A stretch of DNA of 64,000 nucleotides from an uncultured Gammaproteobacteria bacterium. Its GTDB lineage: Bacteria > Pseudomonadota > Gammaproteobacteria > Pseudomonadales > Pseudohongiellaceae. Made by a program: the position numbers and the translations under genes. Under the pieces are notes generated by a model, which worked only from the letters and a program-made list of their open reading frames with translations, did no database searches and was not told the origin of the DNA. The stretch lies in assembly GCA_903853385.1 (NCBI GenBank), contig CAINTJ010000142.1, forward strand, positions 1-64,000. The letters run 5' to 3'. How positions within the stretch are numbered: position 1 is the first letter of the stretch; each line of letters opens with the position of its first letter. Shown here in pieces: positions 6,099 through 55,794 of the stretch.

Positions 6099-7172
6099 CT
6101 ATTTCGCAAGATAAAAAACAGTGCCGGCAAACAGCAAGCGCGCAGTCCGCATGATGGACGTGCTTTTGGGTACCTTGTCGTCGGGATCATCGGCCAGCAC
6201 TACTTCCACTCCCATGGTGCCGGTCGGGTGTTCCACTTCACACACCCGGCGCTGGCCAGTGGGCAGATTGGCAAATTCATGCCCGACTGCACCCGGGATG
6301 TTGGCAGCAGTCGCCACACTGGCTGCCGCCAACACACCCACGGCATCATGCACCCGGTGCGGGATAAAGCTGCGGGTATTGAGAATGCCGCCGGCTGTGG
6401 GCGCCGACACGATGGTCATTTTCGGCACAGTCTTGTCCTTCACGTCCCCCAGATTCATCAGCGGACCCACTGCCAGCCGCAAGGCTTCCACCCGTTGCTT
6501 GAGGGCGGTGTTGGCTTCCAGCGCCTCGATGCTCTCATCGCCTTGCAGACCAAGATCCGCAGCTGCAATCATCACCACCGGCATGCCGTTATCGACCATT
6601 GTCACTGTGAGACCATTGACCACATCGGAAAAATTGCCGGTGGGGAACAAGGCCCCACAGCTGGAACCGGCTACCTCCAGAAATTCAATCATGATGGGGG
6701 CGTGGCTGCCGGGCACACCATCAATGCGGGCATCGCCGTGATACTGCACTTTACGGCCCGGCGTCAGAATGCGCTGCTTGGCCACACTGTCAGTGTTTTC
6801 CATATAGACGGTTACCACGGTTTCTCCGTCATTGGCCTGCACCAGTCCATTCTCGATGGCAAACGGACCCACACCTGCCAGGATGTTGCCGCAGTTCTGC
6901 GAAGTCGACACTTTGGCCTCCTCCACCAGTACCTGCACAAACAGGTAGTCCACATCAATGCCCGGTCGCACTGATTTTTTGATAATGGCAACCTTGCTGG
7001 TAAGCGGATGCGCGCCCCCCACCCCGTCAATCTGGCGTTTGTCGGGTGAGCCCATGATGCCAAGCAAGGCCAGGTCGCGGCTGGCAGCATCCTGTGGCAG
7101 ATCACTGGCCAGGAAATAGGCACCTTTGGAGGTGCCGCCGCGCATCAACATACAGGGAATTGCAACTTGCAT
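6099..7172 (-). CDS. ligU: 4-oxalomesaconate tautomerase/isomerase (PrpF family, LigU/GalD-like)
   Basis: A 357-residue protein of the PrpF family, which has the diaminopimelate-epimerase fold. Family landmarks are CMLMRGGTSKGAYF at the start, STSQNCGNILAGVGPFAI (about residues 89-106) and SSCGALFPTGNFSD (about 168-181). GalD of Pseudomonas interconverts keto and enol 4-oxalomesaconate, while LigU of Sphingobium moves its double bond; the sequence alone does not tell which applies. Genome context is decisive for the pathway: it is divergent from the aldolase, LigA, LigB and LigC homologues of protocatechuate 4,5-cleavage. The ATG at 7172 begins the conserved MQVAIPCML strand. PrpF proper (2-methylaconitate isomerase) is an alternative made unlikely by the neighbours. 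Confidence 0.85.
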   Translation of the reverse strand: MQVAIPCMLMRGGTSKGAYFLASDLPQDAASRDLALLGIMGSPDKRQIDGVGGAHPLTSKVAIIKKSVRPGIDVDYLFVQVLVEEAKVSTSQNCGNILAGVGPFAIENGLVQANDGETVVTVYMENTDSVAKQRILTPGRKVQYHGDARIDGVPGSHAPIMIEFLEVAGSSCGALFPTGNFSDVVNGLTVTMVDNGMPVVMIAAADLGLQGDESIEALEANTALKQRVEALRLAVGPLMNLGDVKDKTVPKMTIVSAPTAGGILNTRSFIPHRVHDAVGVLAAASVATAANIPGAVGHEFANLPTGQRRVCEVEHPTGTMGVEVVLADDPDDKVPKSTSIMRTARLLFAGTVFYLAK

Positions 7173-7391
7173 GACCAGCCTCGTGAGCGTCAGAAATTAA
7201 GATGAAAACAATCAGCAGCAGATGAAAGACTACAATTGTGCAAGCAAAAATGCCTTTGAGCCAGCCTTGTGTAAGCATCCATGGGGTCAGCTCGCTGAAA
7301 ATGGAAAAATTGTACCAATGACTTTTTCCAATTGAGCCGGCCTTGTGCAAATGCATATAATGCCGCAGTTTTTTTTTACCGGGAAAGCCCT
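7173..7391 (+). promoter_or_regulatory. divergent lig promoter region with direct-repeat operator candidates
   Basis: This is the intergenic region between the LigU-like gene and the aldolase operon. A sigma-70-type promoter reads rightward: -35 TTGAGC (7332-7337), an 18-bp spacer, and -10 TATAAT (7356-7361), giving a start near 7368. The 16-bp repeat TTGAGCCRGCCTTGTG occurs at 7256-7271 and 7332-7347 with one mismatch, 76 bp apart. The second copy covers the -35 box. A partial third copy (TTGTGCAAGCA) starts at 7237. A LysR- or IclR-type regulator is expected for such pathways, but no regulator gene is adjacent. Confidence 0.6.
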
Positions 7392-8090
7392 ATGTTCAAG
7401 CCAGTCGCTGTCCGCAACATCCAACGAGCCGAAGCCTCCGTTATTGATGATCTCGCCCTACTGGGCGTTGCCACCACCCATGAAGCCCAGGGCCGTATCG
7501 GCCTGATGGCACCCTACATGCATTCCGTTTGGGGCACGCCGCGCATAGCCGGTAGTGCAGTTACCATCCTGGCGCAGCCCGGCGACAACTGGATGATTCA
7601 TGTTGCCATCGAACTCTGCCAGCCTGGCGATATCCTGGTAGTGGGTCTCTCCGCTGACTGTACCGACGGTTTCTTCGGCGATCTGCTGGCTAGCTCCTGC
7701 CTGGCTCACGGTGTGCGTGGCCTCATCATTGATGCCGGCGTGCGCGACATCAAAGATCTGCGTGAATTGAATTTTCCGGTGTGGTCGAAAGCCGTCCACG
7801 CCAAAGGTACCGTCAAGGAAACTCTCGGCTGTGTCAACGTCCCCATCGTTTGCGCCGGCGCTTATGTCATGCCCGGCGATGTCATCGTCGCCGATGAAGA
7901 CGGCGTATGCGTGATCAAACGTCAGGATGCTGTGGTGGTGCGCGATCTCGCCAAAAAACGCGAAGCGGCTGAAGTAGCCAAACGTGAAAAATTGCAGAAA
8001 GGCGAATGCGGCCTTGATATCTATAACATGCGCGAACGGCTGGTGACGGAAGGCCTCGTCTATCTGGATTCGCTCGACGATTTGAAATAG
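7392..8090 (+). CDS. ligK: 4-carboxy-4-hydroxy-2-oxoadipate (HMG/CHA) aldolase, LigK/GalC-like
   Basis: A 232-residue class II (metal-dependent) pyruvate aldolase of the RraA-like family. It splits 4-carboxy-4-hydroxy-2-oxoadipate into pyruvate and oxaloacetate, the last step of protocatechuate 4,5-cleavage. The signature G-D-x20-R-D is exact: D97, then R118-D119 in LIIDAGVRD, which separates true aldolases from the RNase E inhibitor RraA. The ATG at 7392 follows GGGAAAG; an upstream in-frame TTG would fall inside the -35 box and is rejected. It is the first gene of the rightward lig operon, 96 bp before LigA. Confidence 0.9.
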
Positions 8091-8186: not shown

Positions 8187-8654
8187 ATGGACTATGCTGA
8201 AATCCAGGCACTCAAAGCCAAGTTTGAACAAGTTCCCGGCACCTATCTGTTCAATGCAGACCGCTGCCGCCAGGGTTATTTTCTCAACATGTTCTGTTCC
8301 TCAATGGCGAAAGACGAAAACCGCAAGGCTTTCCTCGCCGACGAAAGCGGCTATCTCGACAGCCGCTTTCCCAAGCTCACTGCTGACCAGCGTCGTTGCG
8401 TACTCGAGCGCGACTGGCTCGGCATGATCAAGAACGGCGCCAACATCTATTACATGAGCAAATTCGGCGCCACATTGGGCCGCTCGTTCCAGTACATGGC
8501 AGGTGCAATGACCGGCCAGGGCCAGGACAACTATCGCGCGATGATGATGGATGGTGGCCGCGTTGTGAAAGGCAACCAGAACAAGAAGGACAATGGCGGC
8601 AAAGTGCTGTGCATCTCCAACAAATCCCACACAGACTTCAGCGGACAGGCGTAA
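8187..8654 (+). CDS. ligA: protocatechuate 4,5-dioxygenase alpha subunit (LigA)
   Basis: A 155-residue small subunit of the LigAB extradiol dioxygenase. It contains the family segment GTYLFNADRCRQGYFLNMF, then LTADQRRCVLERDW and GANIYYMSKFGATLGRS, as in Sphingobium LigA (139 residues), with a slightly longer tail rich in Lys/Asn (KGNQNKKDNGG). The alpha subunit caps the active site of the beta subunit and holds no iron itself. Only 7 bp separate it from LigB, so the two are translated together. The separate alpha chain argues against a fused gallate dioxygenase. Confidence 0.93.
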   Translation: MDYAEIQALKAKFEQVPGTYLFNADRCRQGYFLNMFCSSMAKDENRKAFLADESGYLDSRFPKLTADQRRCVLERDWLGMIKNGANIYYMSKFGATLGRSFQYMAGAMTGQGQDNYRAMMMDGGRVVKGNQNKKDNGGKVLCISNKSHTDFSGQA

Positions 8655-8661
8655 GACTCAG

Positions 8662-9864
8662 ATGGCAAAAATTACTGCAGGTATTGGTTGTTCCCACGTT
8701 CCCGCCATCGGCGCTGCTTTCGACCAGGGCTTGACCCAGGATCCGTACTGGAAGCCCTTGTTCGACGGCTATCCAGCCGCACAAGAGTGGATGCGCCAAC
8801 ACAAACCCGACGTTGCCATCATCGTCTACAACGACCATGGCAGCGCCATCACCCTGGAAACCATTCCGACTTTCGCCATCGGTGTGGCCGACGAATTCCA
8901 GCCGGCCGATGAAGGCTGGGGCCCGCGCAAAGTGCCGGTAGTCAAAGGTCACTCCGCACTGGCCTGGCATTTGGCAGAAACGCTGATCATCAACGAATTC
9001 GACATGTGTGTGATGAACAAACTGGATGTCGACCACGGTCTGACCATCCCGATGAACATCACTTGCGGTCTGGTTGATGAATGGCCCTTTGCCGTAATCC
9101 CGATTGCGGTGAACGTGGTGATGTTCCCGGTACCGAGCGGCGATCGCTGCTGGCGTCTGGGCGAAACCATTCGCAAAGCCGTGGAATCCTTCCCGGAAGA
9201 TCTGAAAGTAGTGGTGTTCGGCACTGGCGGCATGTCGCACCAGATTCACGGTGAGCGCTCCGGCATGATCAATACCAAGTTCGACACCGCCTTCCTCAAC
9301 GACCTGACGAAGAACCCGCAGCGTCTGCGCAAAATCAAGCATGAAGAATTTGTCACCGACAGCGGCGCCGAAGGCATCGAGATGGTGATGTGGATGGCCA
9401 TGCGCGGCGCGCTCGGCGATAACGTGCATGAAGTCTATCGCCACTACCACGTGCCAGCCTCCAATACGGCGGCTGCCGTGATCGTGCTGGAAACCGACGA
9501 CAAGAAGCCAAAGAGAAAGTCGGCAGCCAAGAAAAAAACCGCTGTGAAGAAGGCTGCAGTCAAGAAAGCTGTTAAGAAGCAAGTGGCGAAAAAAACACCT
9601 GCGACCAAGAAAGCCATAGTGAAGAAGCCGGCGAAGAAAACAGCAGTGAAGAAAAAGGCTGTGACAAAGAAACCAGTTGCCAAGAAGGCAGTTGCTAAGA
9701 AGGCAGTGGCTAAGAAGGCAGTGGCTAAGAAACCAGTTGCTAAGAAAGCAGCTGCTAAGAAAGCAGTGGCGAAGAAACCGGTAGCCAAGAAAGTAGCGGC
9801 AAAGAAAGTCGCGCCGAAAAAATCCGTGAAGAAATCCGCCAAGAAGAAAGCCGCTAAAAAGTAA
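8662..9864 (+). CDS. ligB: protocatechuate 4,5-dioxygenase beta subunit (LigB) with a long Lys/Ala-rich C-terminal tail
   Basis: The catalytic subunit of the extradiol dioxygenase that opens protocatechuate between C4 and C5 with O2 and Fe(II). Residues 1-280 match LigB closely: iron ligands H12 (GCSHVP), H59 (YNDHGS) and E240 (GIEMVMW), and catalytic H193 (GGMSHQ), all two positions off Sphingobium LigB after H12. Residues 281-400 are an added tail of PVAKKAVAKK-type units (53 Lys in 120 residues), like the tails of AlgP or histone-H1-like proteins. The tail is in the same frame with no stop or frameshift. Ordinary LigB ends near residue 300. The start is the ATG at 8662, 7 bp after ligA; the tail's role is unknown. 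Confidence 0.93.
   Translation: MAKITAGIGCSHVPAIGAAFDQGLTQDPYWKPLFDGYPAAQEWMRQHKPDVAIIVYNDHGSAITLETIPTFAIGVADEFQPADEGWGPRKVPVVKGHSALAWHLAETLIINEFDMCVMNKLDVDHGLTIPMNITCGLVDEWPFAVIPIAVNVVMFPVPSGDRCWRLGETIRKAVESFPEDLKVVVFGTGGMSHQIHGERSGMINTKFDTAFLNDLTKNPQRLRKIKHEEFVTDSGAEGIEMVMWMAMRGALGDNVHEVYRHYHVPASNTAAAVIVLETDDKKPKRKSAAKKKTAVKKAAVKKAVKKQVAKKTPATKKAIVKKPAKKTAVKKKAVTKKPVAKKAVAKKAVAKKAVAKKPVAKKAAAKKAVAKKPVAKKVAAKKVAPKKSVKKSAKKKAAKK
9661..9800 (+). repeat. in-frame 15-bp tandem repeats encoding the LigB tail
   Basis: Imperfect 15-bp units such as GTTGCTAAGAAGGCA and GTGGCTAAGAAACCA follow one another, each encoding a five-residue A/P-V-A-K-K block. Neighbouring units differ mainly at third codon positions, which suggests slippage growth followed by selection on the protein. 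The Lys/Ala-rich region as a whole runs from about 9502 to 9861. Confidence 0.85.
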
Positions 9865-9881: not shown

Positions 9882-10847
9882 ATGACGAAAGTATTGATGG
9901 TTGGCCATGGCGCCTTCGCTGACAAACACATGGATGCGATCAAGCAAATCCCGGGCGTTGAGGTCGTGTCGATTTGCGGCCGTCGTGACGACGCTACCAA
10001 AGCTGCGGCTGACAAGCGCGGCATCAAGCACTGGGGCACTGACCTTGGTGAATGTCTGAAGCAGGACATTGATGCCGTCATCATAACTTCCGCCACGCAA
10101 GTGCATGCCGCGCAGGCGATCCAGTGTCTGCAAGCCGGCAAACATGTGCAGGTGGAAATTCCGATGGCCGACACCGTGGCCGATTCGCGAGCAATTCTGG
10201 CGGCACAGCAGCAAGCCAGCCAGGCTGGCAAGAAGCTGGTAGCGATGGCAGGCCATACTCGCCGTTTCAACCCTTCGCACCAGTGGATCCATAACAGGGT
10301 CAAAGCCGGTGAACTGAAAGTGCTGCAGATGGATGTGCAGACCTATTTCTTCCGCCGCACCAACCTCAATGCCGCCGGCAATGCTCGCAGCTGGACCGAT
10401 CACCTGCTGTGGCATCATGCCTGTCATACCGTTGATCTGTTTTCCTACCAGACCGGCGAGCCGGTGAAGCACTGTCATGCGCTGGCCGGCCCGCATCATC
10501 CGGAACTGAAAATTGCCATGGACATGAGCATCGGCCTGAAAACTGCCAGCGGCGCCATCTGCACACTGTCGCTGTCATTCAACAACGACGGCCCACTGGG
10601 TACCTTCTTCCGTTACATTTGTGACAACGGCACTTATCTGGCCCGTTACGATGATTTGTTCGACGGCAAGGACAACAAGATCGACGTATCGAAAGTGGAT
10701 GTGTCGATGAACGGCATCGAGTTGCAGGATCGTGAGTTCTTTGCTGCCATCCGGGAAGGCCGCGAGCCCAATGCGTCCATTGCCCAGTGTTTGCCAGCGA
10801 TGGAAACCCTGGACAGACTGGAGCAGTCACTCAACAGCACCCAGTAA
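9882..10847 (+). CDS. ligC: 4-carboxy-2-hydroxymuconate-6-semialdehyde dehydrogenase (LigC)
   Basis: A 321-residue Gfo/Idh/MocA-family NADP-dependent dehydrogenase that oxidises the ring-cleavage product of LigAB to 2-pyrone-4,6-dicarboxylate. The N-terminal Rossmann motif is VGHGAFADKHMDAI; later blocks GHTRRFNPSHQWIHN, MDVQTYFFRR, RSWTDHLLWHHACHTVDL and DVSMNGIELQDREF agree with Sphingobium LigC almost residue for residue. It has a strong GAGGGG ribosome site and begins 17 bp after ligB, in the same operon. A hairpin follows the stop. Confidence 0.93.
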   Translation: MTKVLMVGHGAFADKHMDAIKQIPGVEVVSICGRRDDATKAAADKRGIKHWGTDLGECLKQDIDAVIITSATQVHAAQAIQCLQAGKHVQVEIPMADTVADSRAILAAQQQASQAGKKLVAMAGHTRRFNPSHQWIHNRVKAGELKVLQMDVQTYFFRRTNLNAAGNARSWTDHLLWHHACHTVDLFSYQTGEPVKHCHALAGPHHPELKIAMDMSIGLKTASGAICTLSLSFNNDGPLGTFFRYICDNGTYLARYDDLFDGKDNKIDVSKVDVSMNGIELQDREFFAAIREGREPNASIAQCLPAMETLDRLEQSLNSTQ

Positions 10848-54214: not shown

Positions 54215-55794
54215 TTTTTGTCACCCTTCTTCGCAACTGGCTCGTCGAAATTGAACATATCTTCTTCTTTGGCAGTGTCGGGATCTTTCATCCCCTGCTC
54301 GAAATATTTTGCCCACGTCTTTGCCCATGGACGGCCGTACATGTCAGGCACTTCAAATTCAATCACCTGGCCGGGCGTGACCGGCGTCGCCTTGCCTTTG
54401 ACTGCATAGATGTTCGGCACGCATTCAATGAACGCGTACGGATTGCCCTGGTCCATGCCGCCCAGGCGCGTCAGTGTACGCACGATGCGAATCGGTTCCA
54501 CCAGCGATTCCGGATCATAGAAGATCGCCTCGTGGTTGAGCCCGGTCAGTTTGCCTTGGGCATCACGGTTCGGCGAATAGATCTCGAGGGTTTGCAGCTT
54601 GCTGGAAAACTCGAACTTGCCATGCACCATCCAGCCCTGCACGTTCGAGGTCCAGGTAATCAGCGTGTCCTTGTCCCAGAAACCGACGGTTTCGCCGTAC
54701 CAGCGTGGCACGTCGGTGCCCAGACGCGGGGTCGCGCCGCTCATGTTGAACGTGCGGCCAACGTTGATGTTGGTGACAAAATTGCGCGCCACACCCGTGG
54801 AAATCTGCACCAGCTCGGGCGTCACAAGAATGTAGTGGGGATTGATGCCGGGCTGGATTGCCACCGGATCAAAACGACGCATGAAGCCTTCCGGCCAGCA
54901 ATATTGCGAAGGCCATTGCGAGGCAGCATTGACGCCCTCCTGATACAGCAGCTCCACCATGCGTTTCTGGTACTCGGGTGTCAGCAGCGACAGGATGGTC
55001 GGGATCTGGTTGACGCGCATGCTGCCATACCAGTTCTGTCCGCCGAGTCCATAGCGGCCAGTCCAGTCGCCAGGCACGGTCGCATAGGTGTGCTGGGTGG
55101 GACCGCCGTGGGCTTTGGTCTCAGCCATCAGTGCTTCGTAATGGGCCTGTGCAGTTTTGAACGGATAGGGGCTCACGATGGCAGCACGCGGATAGTCACG
55201 ATCGCAGAATCCCCAAGGTGCGTTCTTAGGATTGTCGCCAGCCAGTGCCGCGCCGTTGGCACCCCGCTGCGATTCAGCCGCATAGGGGCTGTTGCAACGG
55301 AAATAGCGCGGATCACTCCACAGTGCACGGTCCTGATAGAAATCCTTGGTGGTGAACAGATCAACCGGCAGCGGCTTGACGCCCGGAGGTGCCGCGCCAT
55401 CATAGGAGCTGGCTGCGATTGCGGTGGCAACTCCCTGGGAACCCGCTACTGGCGGTTGTCCAGCCACTGGCGGCCGGCCCGCAGCCGGAGCTGCACCGGC
55501 GGCAGGTGGAGGTCCACCGGCACCAGGAGGACCGCCAGCACCCGGCGGTGGTCCTGCGAACAAACCCCGCATAGGCGCCGGACCAATCTGCCACAGGTCA
55601 CGATCCATGAATTGTTTGACCGCTTCATCCTTCACCTGGGCAGGCTTGGCATTGGCTGGTGGCTGATTAAGGTCGGCGGCCAGCGGCCAGCCGCGCCCCA
55701 CGCTCTGGGGTGCGGGATCAGCAGCCTGCAGGCCTGCTATTCCGGCGATGAGCAAGAGCCCAGAAGCCACTACCAGTTTCTTCGCAATTCGCAT
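54211..55794 (-). CDS. large exported protein with PPGGAGG linker and GxWxGDTLIxW motif
   Basis: A 527-residue protein with a signal peptide (residues 1-24). A Pro/Gly/Ala-rich linker (about 78-121) separates a short N-terminal helix from a large domain. The domain has [75 protein letters not shown] and [18 protein letters not shown]. The [12 protein letters not shown] block matches GKWEGDTLVIDT and related blocks at 31433, 57581. Function unknown. It is the first gene of a four-gene operon with DUF6152 and two DUF6644 proteins. Confidence 0.8.

Follow-up and report, generated by a model that had tools for sequence, protein, structure and literature searches.

Why should the beta subunit of a ring-cleaving dioxygenase end in a long run of lysines? 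The question is raised by a ligB gene in the 64,000-nucleotide stretch of DNA analysed here (the window; contig CAINTJ010000142.1, assembly GCA_903853385.1), which comes from an uncultured member of the Pseudohongiellaceae. A first-pass annotation made from the DNA letters had described its product as a LigB with a normal catalytic core and four normal active-site residues, followed in frame by a lysine-rich tail that ordinary LigB proteins lack.

The ligB gene, its core and its tail

The gene and its parts are as follows:
8662-9864, + strand: ligB, protocatechuate 4,5-dioxygenase beta subunit of 400 aa with a C-terminal basic tail
8662-9501, + strand: LigB catalytic core, residues 1-280, with invariant residues and folded in the AlphaFold2 model
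9502-9861, + strand: polycationic tail, residues 281-400, with 53 Lys, 1 Arg and 0 Asp/Glu in 120 residues; predicted disordered
9667-9808, + strand: 15-bp tandem repeat (KK-A/P-V-A units) with a 45-bp higher period, found by TRF

The frame is uninterrupted up to the TAA at 9862-9864. Translation almost certainly begins at the ATG at 8662, which lies 10 nt past the ligA stop and matches the start in relatives; the first ATG, at 8593, was rejected, as it falls inside ligA and relatives begin elsewhere. The product scores 231.9 bits against the Pfam LigB profile (cut-off 26.3) and 418.7 bits against NCBIfam PRK13366 (cut-off 317), and the LigB chain of SYK-6 (1b4u_B) matches residues 1-280 with an E value of 3.8e-110. 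H12, H59, H193 and E240 are unchanged across 23 LigB sequences and align with H12, H61, H195 and E242 of 1b4u_B. We take their catalytic roles to be those of the active-site His/His/Glu (H12, H59 and E240) and a second-sphere His (H193). With PRK13366 exceeded and these residues invariant, the description of the core and its four residues as normal stands. The core is also well modelled, with AlphaFold2 (23 sequences) giving pLDDT above 80 in 22 of its 28 ten-residue blocks. By profile, residues and gene context the window protein is LigB, and 4,5-cleavage of protocatechuate, a compound released when lignin is degraded, is its predicted reaction.

Re-reading the tail returned the same 120 in-frame residues and 53 Lys that had first been counted. 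TRF finds 9.5 copies of the 15-bp period with 82% matches, and the self-similarity of the tail DNA lies above that of all 200 of 200 codon-shuffled copies. From residue 281 onward the AlphaFold2 model (again 23 sequences) has block pLDDT of 42-47 and zero secondary structure, and the tail is predicted to be disordered. The regular five-residue spacing of the A/P-V-A-K-K units reported at first pass is kept in the window species and partly in three related species (G001, G005 and G009), and is missing from two others (G003 and G004). Judged from these sequences, the feature conserved through the clade is a basic, acid-free composition and not the A/P-V-A-K-K unit. The sole matches of the tail among solved structures are basic stretches in sigma factors of actinobacteria (E about 2e-5), which we take as compositional.

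The neighbouring pathway genes are:
6099-7172, - strand: 4-oxalomesaconate tautomerase (NF033377, 505.3 bits; cut-off 440)
7332-8090, + strand: ligK, 4-carboxy-4-hydroxy-2-oxoadipate aldolase (TIGR02798, 340.6 bits; cut-off 304.5)
8187-8654, + strand: ligA, alpha subunit of 155 aa (TIGR02792, 142 bits; cut-off 108.6)
9882-10847, + strand: ligC-like dehydrogenase (Pfam GFO_IDH_MocA and OxRdtase_C), starting 17 nt past the ligB stop

LigA, LigK and the oxalomesaconate tautomerase thus all score above their profile cut-offs beside ligB. The product of 9882-10847 is presumably LigC, named from its gene position and called LigC-like by its Pfam domains. Translation of ligK may begin further downstream than the listed TTG. 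We further note that LigA has an extra C-terminal stretch, NGGKVxCxSN... (8590-8651 in the window), which is found in eight of eight genus members, tailed or not (besides the window, at loci L009, L035, L036, L037, L038, L039 and L043), and is absent in the outgroup G019. Elsewhere in the window, at 55481-55542, lie short overlapping tandem repeats of 18-21 bp with GGAGCTCCACCGG-like units.

Distribution and origin of the tail

All 11 genomes searched in the genus gave some match, and eight of them, the window's included, have a true LigB orthologue, with core identities of 83-100%. Six of the eight orthologues carry the tail, namely that of the window (G000) and those of G001, G003, G004, G005 and G009. 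Five of these tails are complete, and the G005 contig ends after 49 tail residues. A doubt raised at first pass, that close relatives might all end near residue 290, is thereby removed, as the tail is found in five of the seven other orthologues. The LigB proteins of G007 (281 aa) and G008 (280 aa) stop directly past the core and have no tail. No lysine-rich remnant follows either gene in the visible DNA; in G007 ligC begins 79 nt downstream of the ligB stop, and in G008 the contig ends 65 nt past the stop codon. A true LigB orthologue was not found in the assemblies of G002, G006 and G010, of which G002 and G006 are incomplete.

A tail of this kind could in principle be an artefact in which an assembly join has fused ligB to a histone-like gene. 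An equivalent arrangement is present in the assemblies of other species in the genus, the ligC start lies 16-20 nt past the ligB stop in all five complete tailed loci, and the separate H1-like gene of the window genome sits on a different contig. Indeed, a frameshift or join at about position 9500, suggested as a point to check, was looked for and none was found, and a comparable tail occupies the same place in the assemblies of other species. These observations leave the artefact with next to no probability. Of the five tailed copies besides the window's, four also appear under CAILUG010000031.1, CAMDML010000052.1, CANGUU010000012.1 and CANCGR010000076.1. The second of these (locus L036) is titled Klebsiella pneumoniae; it matches genome G003 of the genus and shares 95% identity with the window in the LigB core, and is probably a misnamed metagenome bin.

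Beyond the genus, we searched with the full protein in overlapping samples of genomes from the order (390 genomes, 67 with a match at E 1e-20), the class (369 genomes, 12 with a match at E 1e-60) and the phylum (398 genomes, 39 with a match at E 1e-60), genus members being counted in each. Among the matches listed outside the genus, none extends beyond query residue 309 except that in G124. The G124 alignment reaches residue 342 but contains internal stops, and its ORF ends at residue 283; it was rejected as a tailed LigB. Reading the 109 loci that the searches returned gave 101 distinct LigB-like ORFs, with the genus orthologues left aside and 12 genus paralogues included, and ten of the 109 loci gave no row, being repeats of counted ORFs or divergent or partial. 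Stops at 278-297 residues account for 94 of the 101, and six are longer than 400 residues and have a LigA-like domain there instead. The remaining one, L047, leaves its contig at residue 266, so that its C-terminal end lies outside the contig. None of the other 100 has a basic tail, and net charge past residue 280 is at most +3. These 101 ORFs (one contig-cut) bear out the statement that ordinary LigB proteins lack such a tail, and they rule out the tail as a general LigB feature. Among the papers listed by searches of an open-access library, which lacks most subscription papers, none reported a tail of this kind on LigB or on an extradiol dioxygenase.

Mapping the tail on homologue trees, as had been proposed, places the tailed species in one clade for both subunits. 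The tailed rows group together in the LigB core trees of 9 rows (97/96) and 14 rows (91/96) and in the LigA tree (97/94); the LigC tree of 9 rows fails to recover the tailed clade, which appears in 26% of bootstrap trees. Since the tailed species form one clade in the LigA and LigB trees, a single gain is the simplest account, and the tail was probably gained once within the genus. An older gain followed by losses in G007 and G008 may also have occurred, and is less simple than a single gain.

The genus itself holds possible source material. Separate H1-like frames (beginning MKKA... and containing APAKK or AVAKK units) are present in 10 of the 11 genus genomes, some of them running in frame from an upstream basic ORF, and in G007 neither a KK-repeat pattern nor the HC2 profile finds a separate H1-like frame. 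The tail DNA scores 0.695 against the window genome's own H1-like gene, with a codon-shuffled mean of 0.678 and 4 of 200 shuffles reaching the observed value, which hints weakly at descent from that gene. The G003 tail opens with an in-frame ATG (MKKAAAKKK; L036:3841-3852) that resembles the starts of separate H1-like proteins, and an internal translation start at this ATG is possible in G003.

Charge, turnover and the proposed role of the tail

The cores of the six tailed species are well separated at synonymous sites, with Nei-Gojobori dS of 0.65-2.06 (about 2.1 at most) and dN of 0.02-0.12. Their tails have diverged so far that some are almost unalignable: the G003 tail consists partly of AGKMKNIAGRLNAAKNK, and the G004 tail is rich in Arg and Pro, with 12 Arg and 28 Lys, the residue having changed and the charge having been kept. 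The synonymous versus nonsynonymous comparison suggested at first pass, made here among genus species, gave pS 0.629 and pN 0.115 over 83 aligned tail codons of the closest pair, G000 and G001, where alignment of repeats biases pN downwards; in other tail pairs pN is as high as 0.48. Across this divergence the six tails contain no Asp or Glu in 545 residues, and net charge in the five complete tails is +53, +43, +34, +44 and +40 (+24 for the contig-cut one).

These data bear on the possibility that the tail is a near-neutral repeat expansion, in which loss or displacement of the ligB stop was followed by slippage, building a tail that is tolerated with no selected role. The 15-bp tandem units and a self-similarity reached by none of the 200 codon shuffles are what such an origin would leave, as are the strong differences in tail length and sequence among species. 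Against it stand the absence of acidic residues from all 545 positions and the open frames of six species despite the core dS of 0.65-2.06, together with the excess of pS over pN in the closest pair, for which the alignment favours low pN. We compared the tails with a simple neutral simulation (2000 runs from the G000 tail, ignoring slippage and homogenisation). By 0.1 changes per site, drift had introduced about three acidic residues; the share of runs that ended with an open frame and zero acidic residues was 0.9% at this level and 0.1% at 0.2, and it was 0 of 2000 at 0.33, 0.5 and 0.6. We therefore consider near-neutral expansion unlikely, although it keeps some weight. The retention of zero acidic residues and of net charges of +34 to +53 despite sequence turnover points to selection on charge and composition. 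It suggests that tail composition and charge are under selection while DNA slippage supplies variation, and TRF, codon shuffles, charge counts and simulation agree on the slippage-type repeats and protein-level constraint originally claimed.

What, then, might be selected? With so little conservation of the tail sequence (pN up to 0.48), recognition of one specific partner site is unlikely, and since the same set of pathway genes occurs in G007 and G008, whose LigB has no tail, the tail appears dispensable for the reaction itself. The protein is an otherwise ordinary beta subunit of a class III ring-cleavage dioxygenase, bearing a predicted disordered polycationic tail of the histone-H1/AlgP type that most likely acts by charge. 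With middling confidence, and by analogy, we propose that its main role is to serve as a polyanion-binding anchor for DNA, RNA or polyphosphate. In crystals LigAB forms a dimer of alpha/beta pairs, and in native gels it may run as a trimer of such pairs (PMC10094722). An oligomer of this kind would carry two or three tails per particle and could thus bind polyanions avidly. Such binding would concentrate the ring-cleaving enzyme at nucleoid DNA, RNA or polyphosphate, presumably to the benefit of the cell. DNA, RNA and polyphosphate are indistinguishable as partners from sequence; polyphosphate kinase (ppk) is encoded in all 11 genus genomes.

The same charge could serve other ends. As an electrostatic aid, the tail would draw in the anionic substrate or product, or bind partner enzymes through their acidic surfaces, with no polyanionic scaffold involved. 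Both protocatechuate and the product of its ring opening are anionic, LigC catalyses the next step, and ligA, ligB and the ligC-like gene lie side by side, all of which fits this role; but 90-120 acid-free residues would far exceed the length needed for local steering, and we regard the role as plainly unlikely. Polybasic stretches also bind anionic lipids, so the tail might anchor the enzyme to membrane lipids or to the inner face of the envelope. By eye, the mix of basic and hydrophobic residues in the G003 tail could form an amphipathic helix, yet the tails of G000, G001, G004, G005 and G009 have no aromatic residues bar one His and few bulky hydrophobics besides Val, which makes a membrane anchor quite improbable.

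If the proposed polyanion anchor is right, a histone-H1-like tail would hold a soluble catabolic enzyme in place at the nucleoid, at RNA or at polyphosphate granules, a fuller picture that we offer tentatively and consider possible. Bacterial H1-like tails are known mainly from nucleoid and storage-granule proteins. Here one is found on a textbook enzyme, gained inside one genus that includes sister species lacking it. Tailed and tailless sisters form a natural pair for asking how a charge-only tail affects the location and performance of an enzyme, and whether polyanionic scaffolds serve bacteria as sites for metabolic enzymes.

Basic repeats on other proteins and known systems

Basic extensions recur on other proteins of these bacteria. 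DksA has a long Lys-rich N-terminal extension in four genomes (L050, L177, L178 and L193; Pfam was run on L050), and PhaE (PF09712) of a relative in the same family has a Lys-rich C-terminal tail (L179, G018:C10). At L187 (G089:C246) a WS/DGAT acyltransferase C-terminal domain (PF06974) precedes a long, basic tail of the H1-like kind, making it a second tailed enzyme in the order. Basic repeats are also found, within the genus and order, on a SWIM protein (by Pfam), an FKBP-like protein and a trigger-factor-like protein (the last two by eye). The likeness of the DksA, PhaE, WS/DGAT and SWIM cases to the window protein is that of a basic repeat on an unrelated folded domain; none of them is an aromatic-ring dioxygenase, and the DksA extension is N-terminal. 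As like repeats occur on several unrelated proteins, the tail seems to be a module of a portable type. If the anchoring role is true, charge-only tails would be a general portable localisation device for storage (PhaE, WS/DGAT), regulatory (DksA) and catabolic (LigB) proteins.

The C-terminus of PhaM is rich in Lys and Ala. In Ralstonia eutropha this protein links PHB granules to the nucleoid (PMC3556143). Its likeness to the proposed anchor is the attachment of a metabolic body to the nucleoid; it differs in acting on a PHB granule. An anchor to polyhydroxyalkanoate granules in the style of PhaF or PhaM could be imagined here too, as PhaF, PhaM and the relative's PhaE carry or work with such tails. 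However, PhaC_N, a profile that may miss some synthase classes, has no match in the 11 genus genomes (some incomplete), with Caulobacter positive as a control. A PHA granule is thus an unlikely partner, and we consider this anchor highly improbable.

Two named classes of polyphosphate- or nucleic-acid-associated sequence were considered as the identity of the tail. The PASK motif is polyacidic as well as Ser- and Lys-rich and binds polyphosphate (PMC12345225), and was rejected given 0 Asp/Glu in 545 residues. According to the same source, YihI and RNase R bind polyphosphate through Lys-rich regions that are not PASK motifs (PMC12345225). The Hc2 protein of Chlamydia (Pfam HC2, PF07382) also has Lys-rich pentamers, and the window tail scores 43.5-45.5 bits against a cut-off of 40, but Hc2 is a whole small nucleoprotein whereas the feature here is the tail of an enzyme. 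Of four other tails run against the profile, two score 24.4 (G001) and 13.6 bits (G009) and two have no match (G003 and G004). HC2 is over its cut-off in one of 11 genus genomes, and membership was rejected. None of four residue shuffles matches HC2, and the window match therefore rests on a pentamer order absent from the sister tails. The NCBIfam models hist_H1_lk_Burk (37.7 of 80) and histone_lik_HC2 (35.6 of 135) are both below cut-off on the window protein.

The core belongs with SYK-6 LigAB from Sphingobium sp. (PDB 1b4u and 1bou), which is of the same family and aligns over the core and its four His/Glu residues. The SYK-6 beta chain has 302 residues, with nothing aligned past residue 282, and lacks the 120-residue basic tail. 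For the tail, the closest systems are AlgP and PhaF of Pseudomonas, which share with it a disordered Lys/Ala/Pro-rich C-terminal repeat with KPVA-type variants (PMC9239181). In P. aeruginosa, AlgP localises to polyphosphate granules and has a disordered KPAA-repeat C-terminal domain that is required for granule spacing, a fragment of which binds DNA; its net charge is +55 and that of PhaF, whose domain is homologous to that of AlgP, is +35 (PMC9239181). The window tail resembles these in being predicted disordered, rich in Lys, Ala, Pro and Val, acid-free and similar in charge range. It differs in that AlgP and PhaF carry a four-residue KPAA unit on a helical or phasin domain and the window protein a mostly five-residue unit on an iron dioxygenase. 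The folded parts have no homology, and Pfam finds LigB and no AlgP or phasin domain in the N-terminal part of the window protein. By this analogy, the tail most likely works like the H1-like tails of AlgP and PhaF while being a member of neither family.
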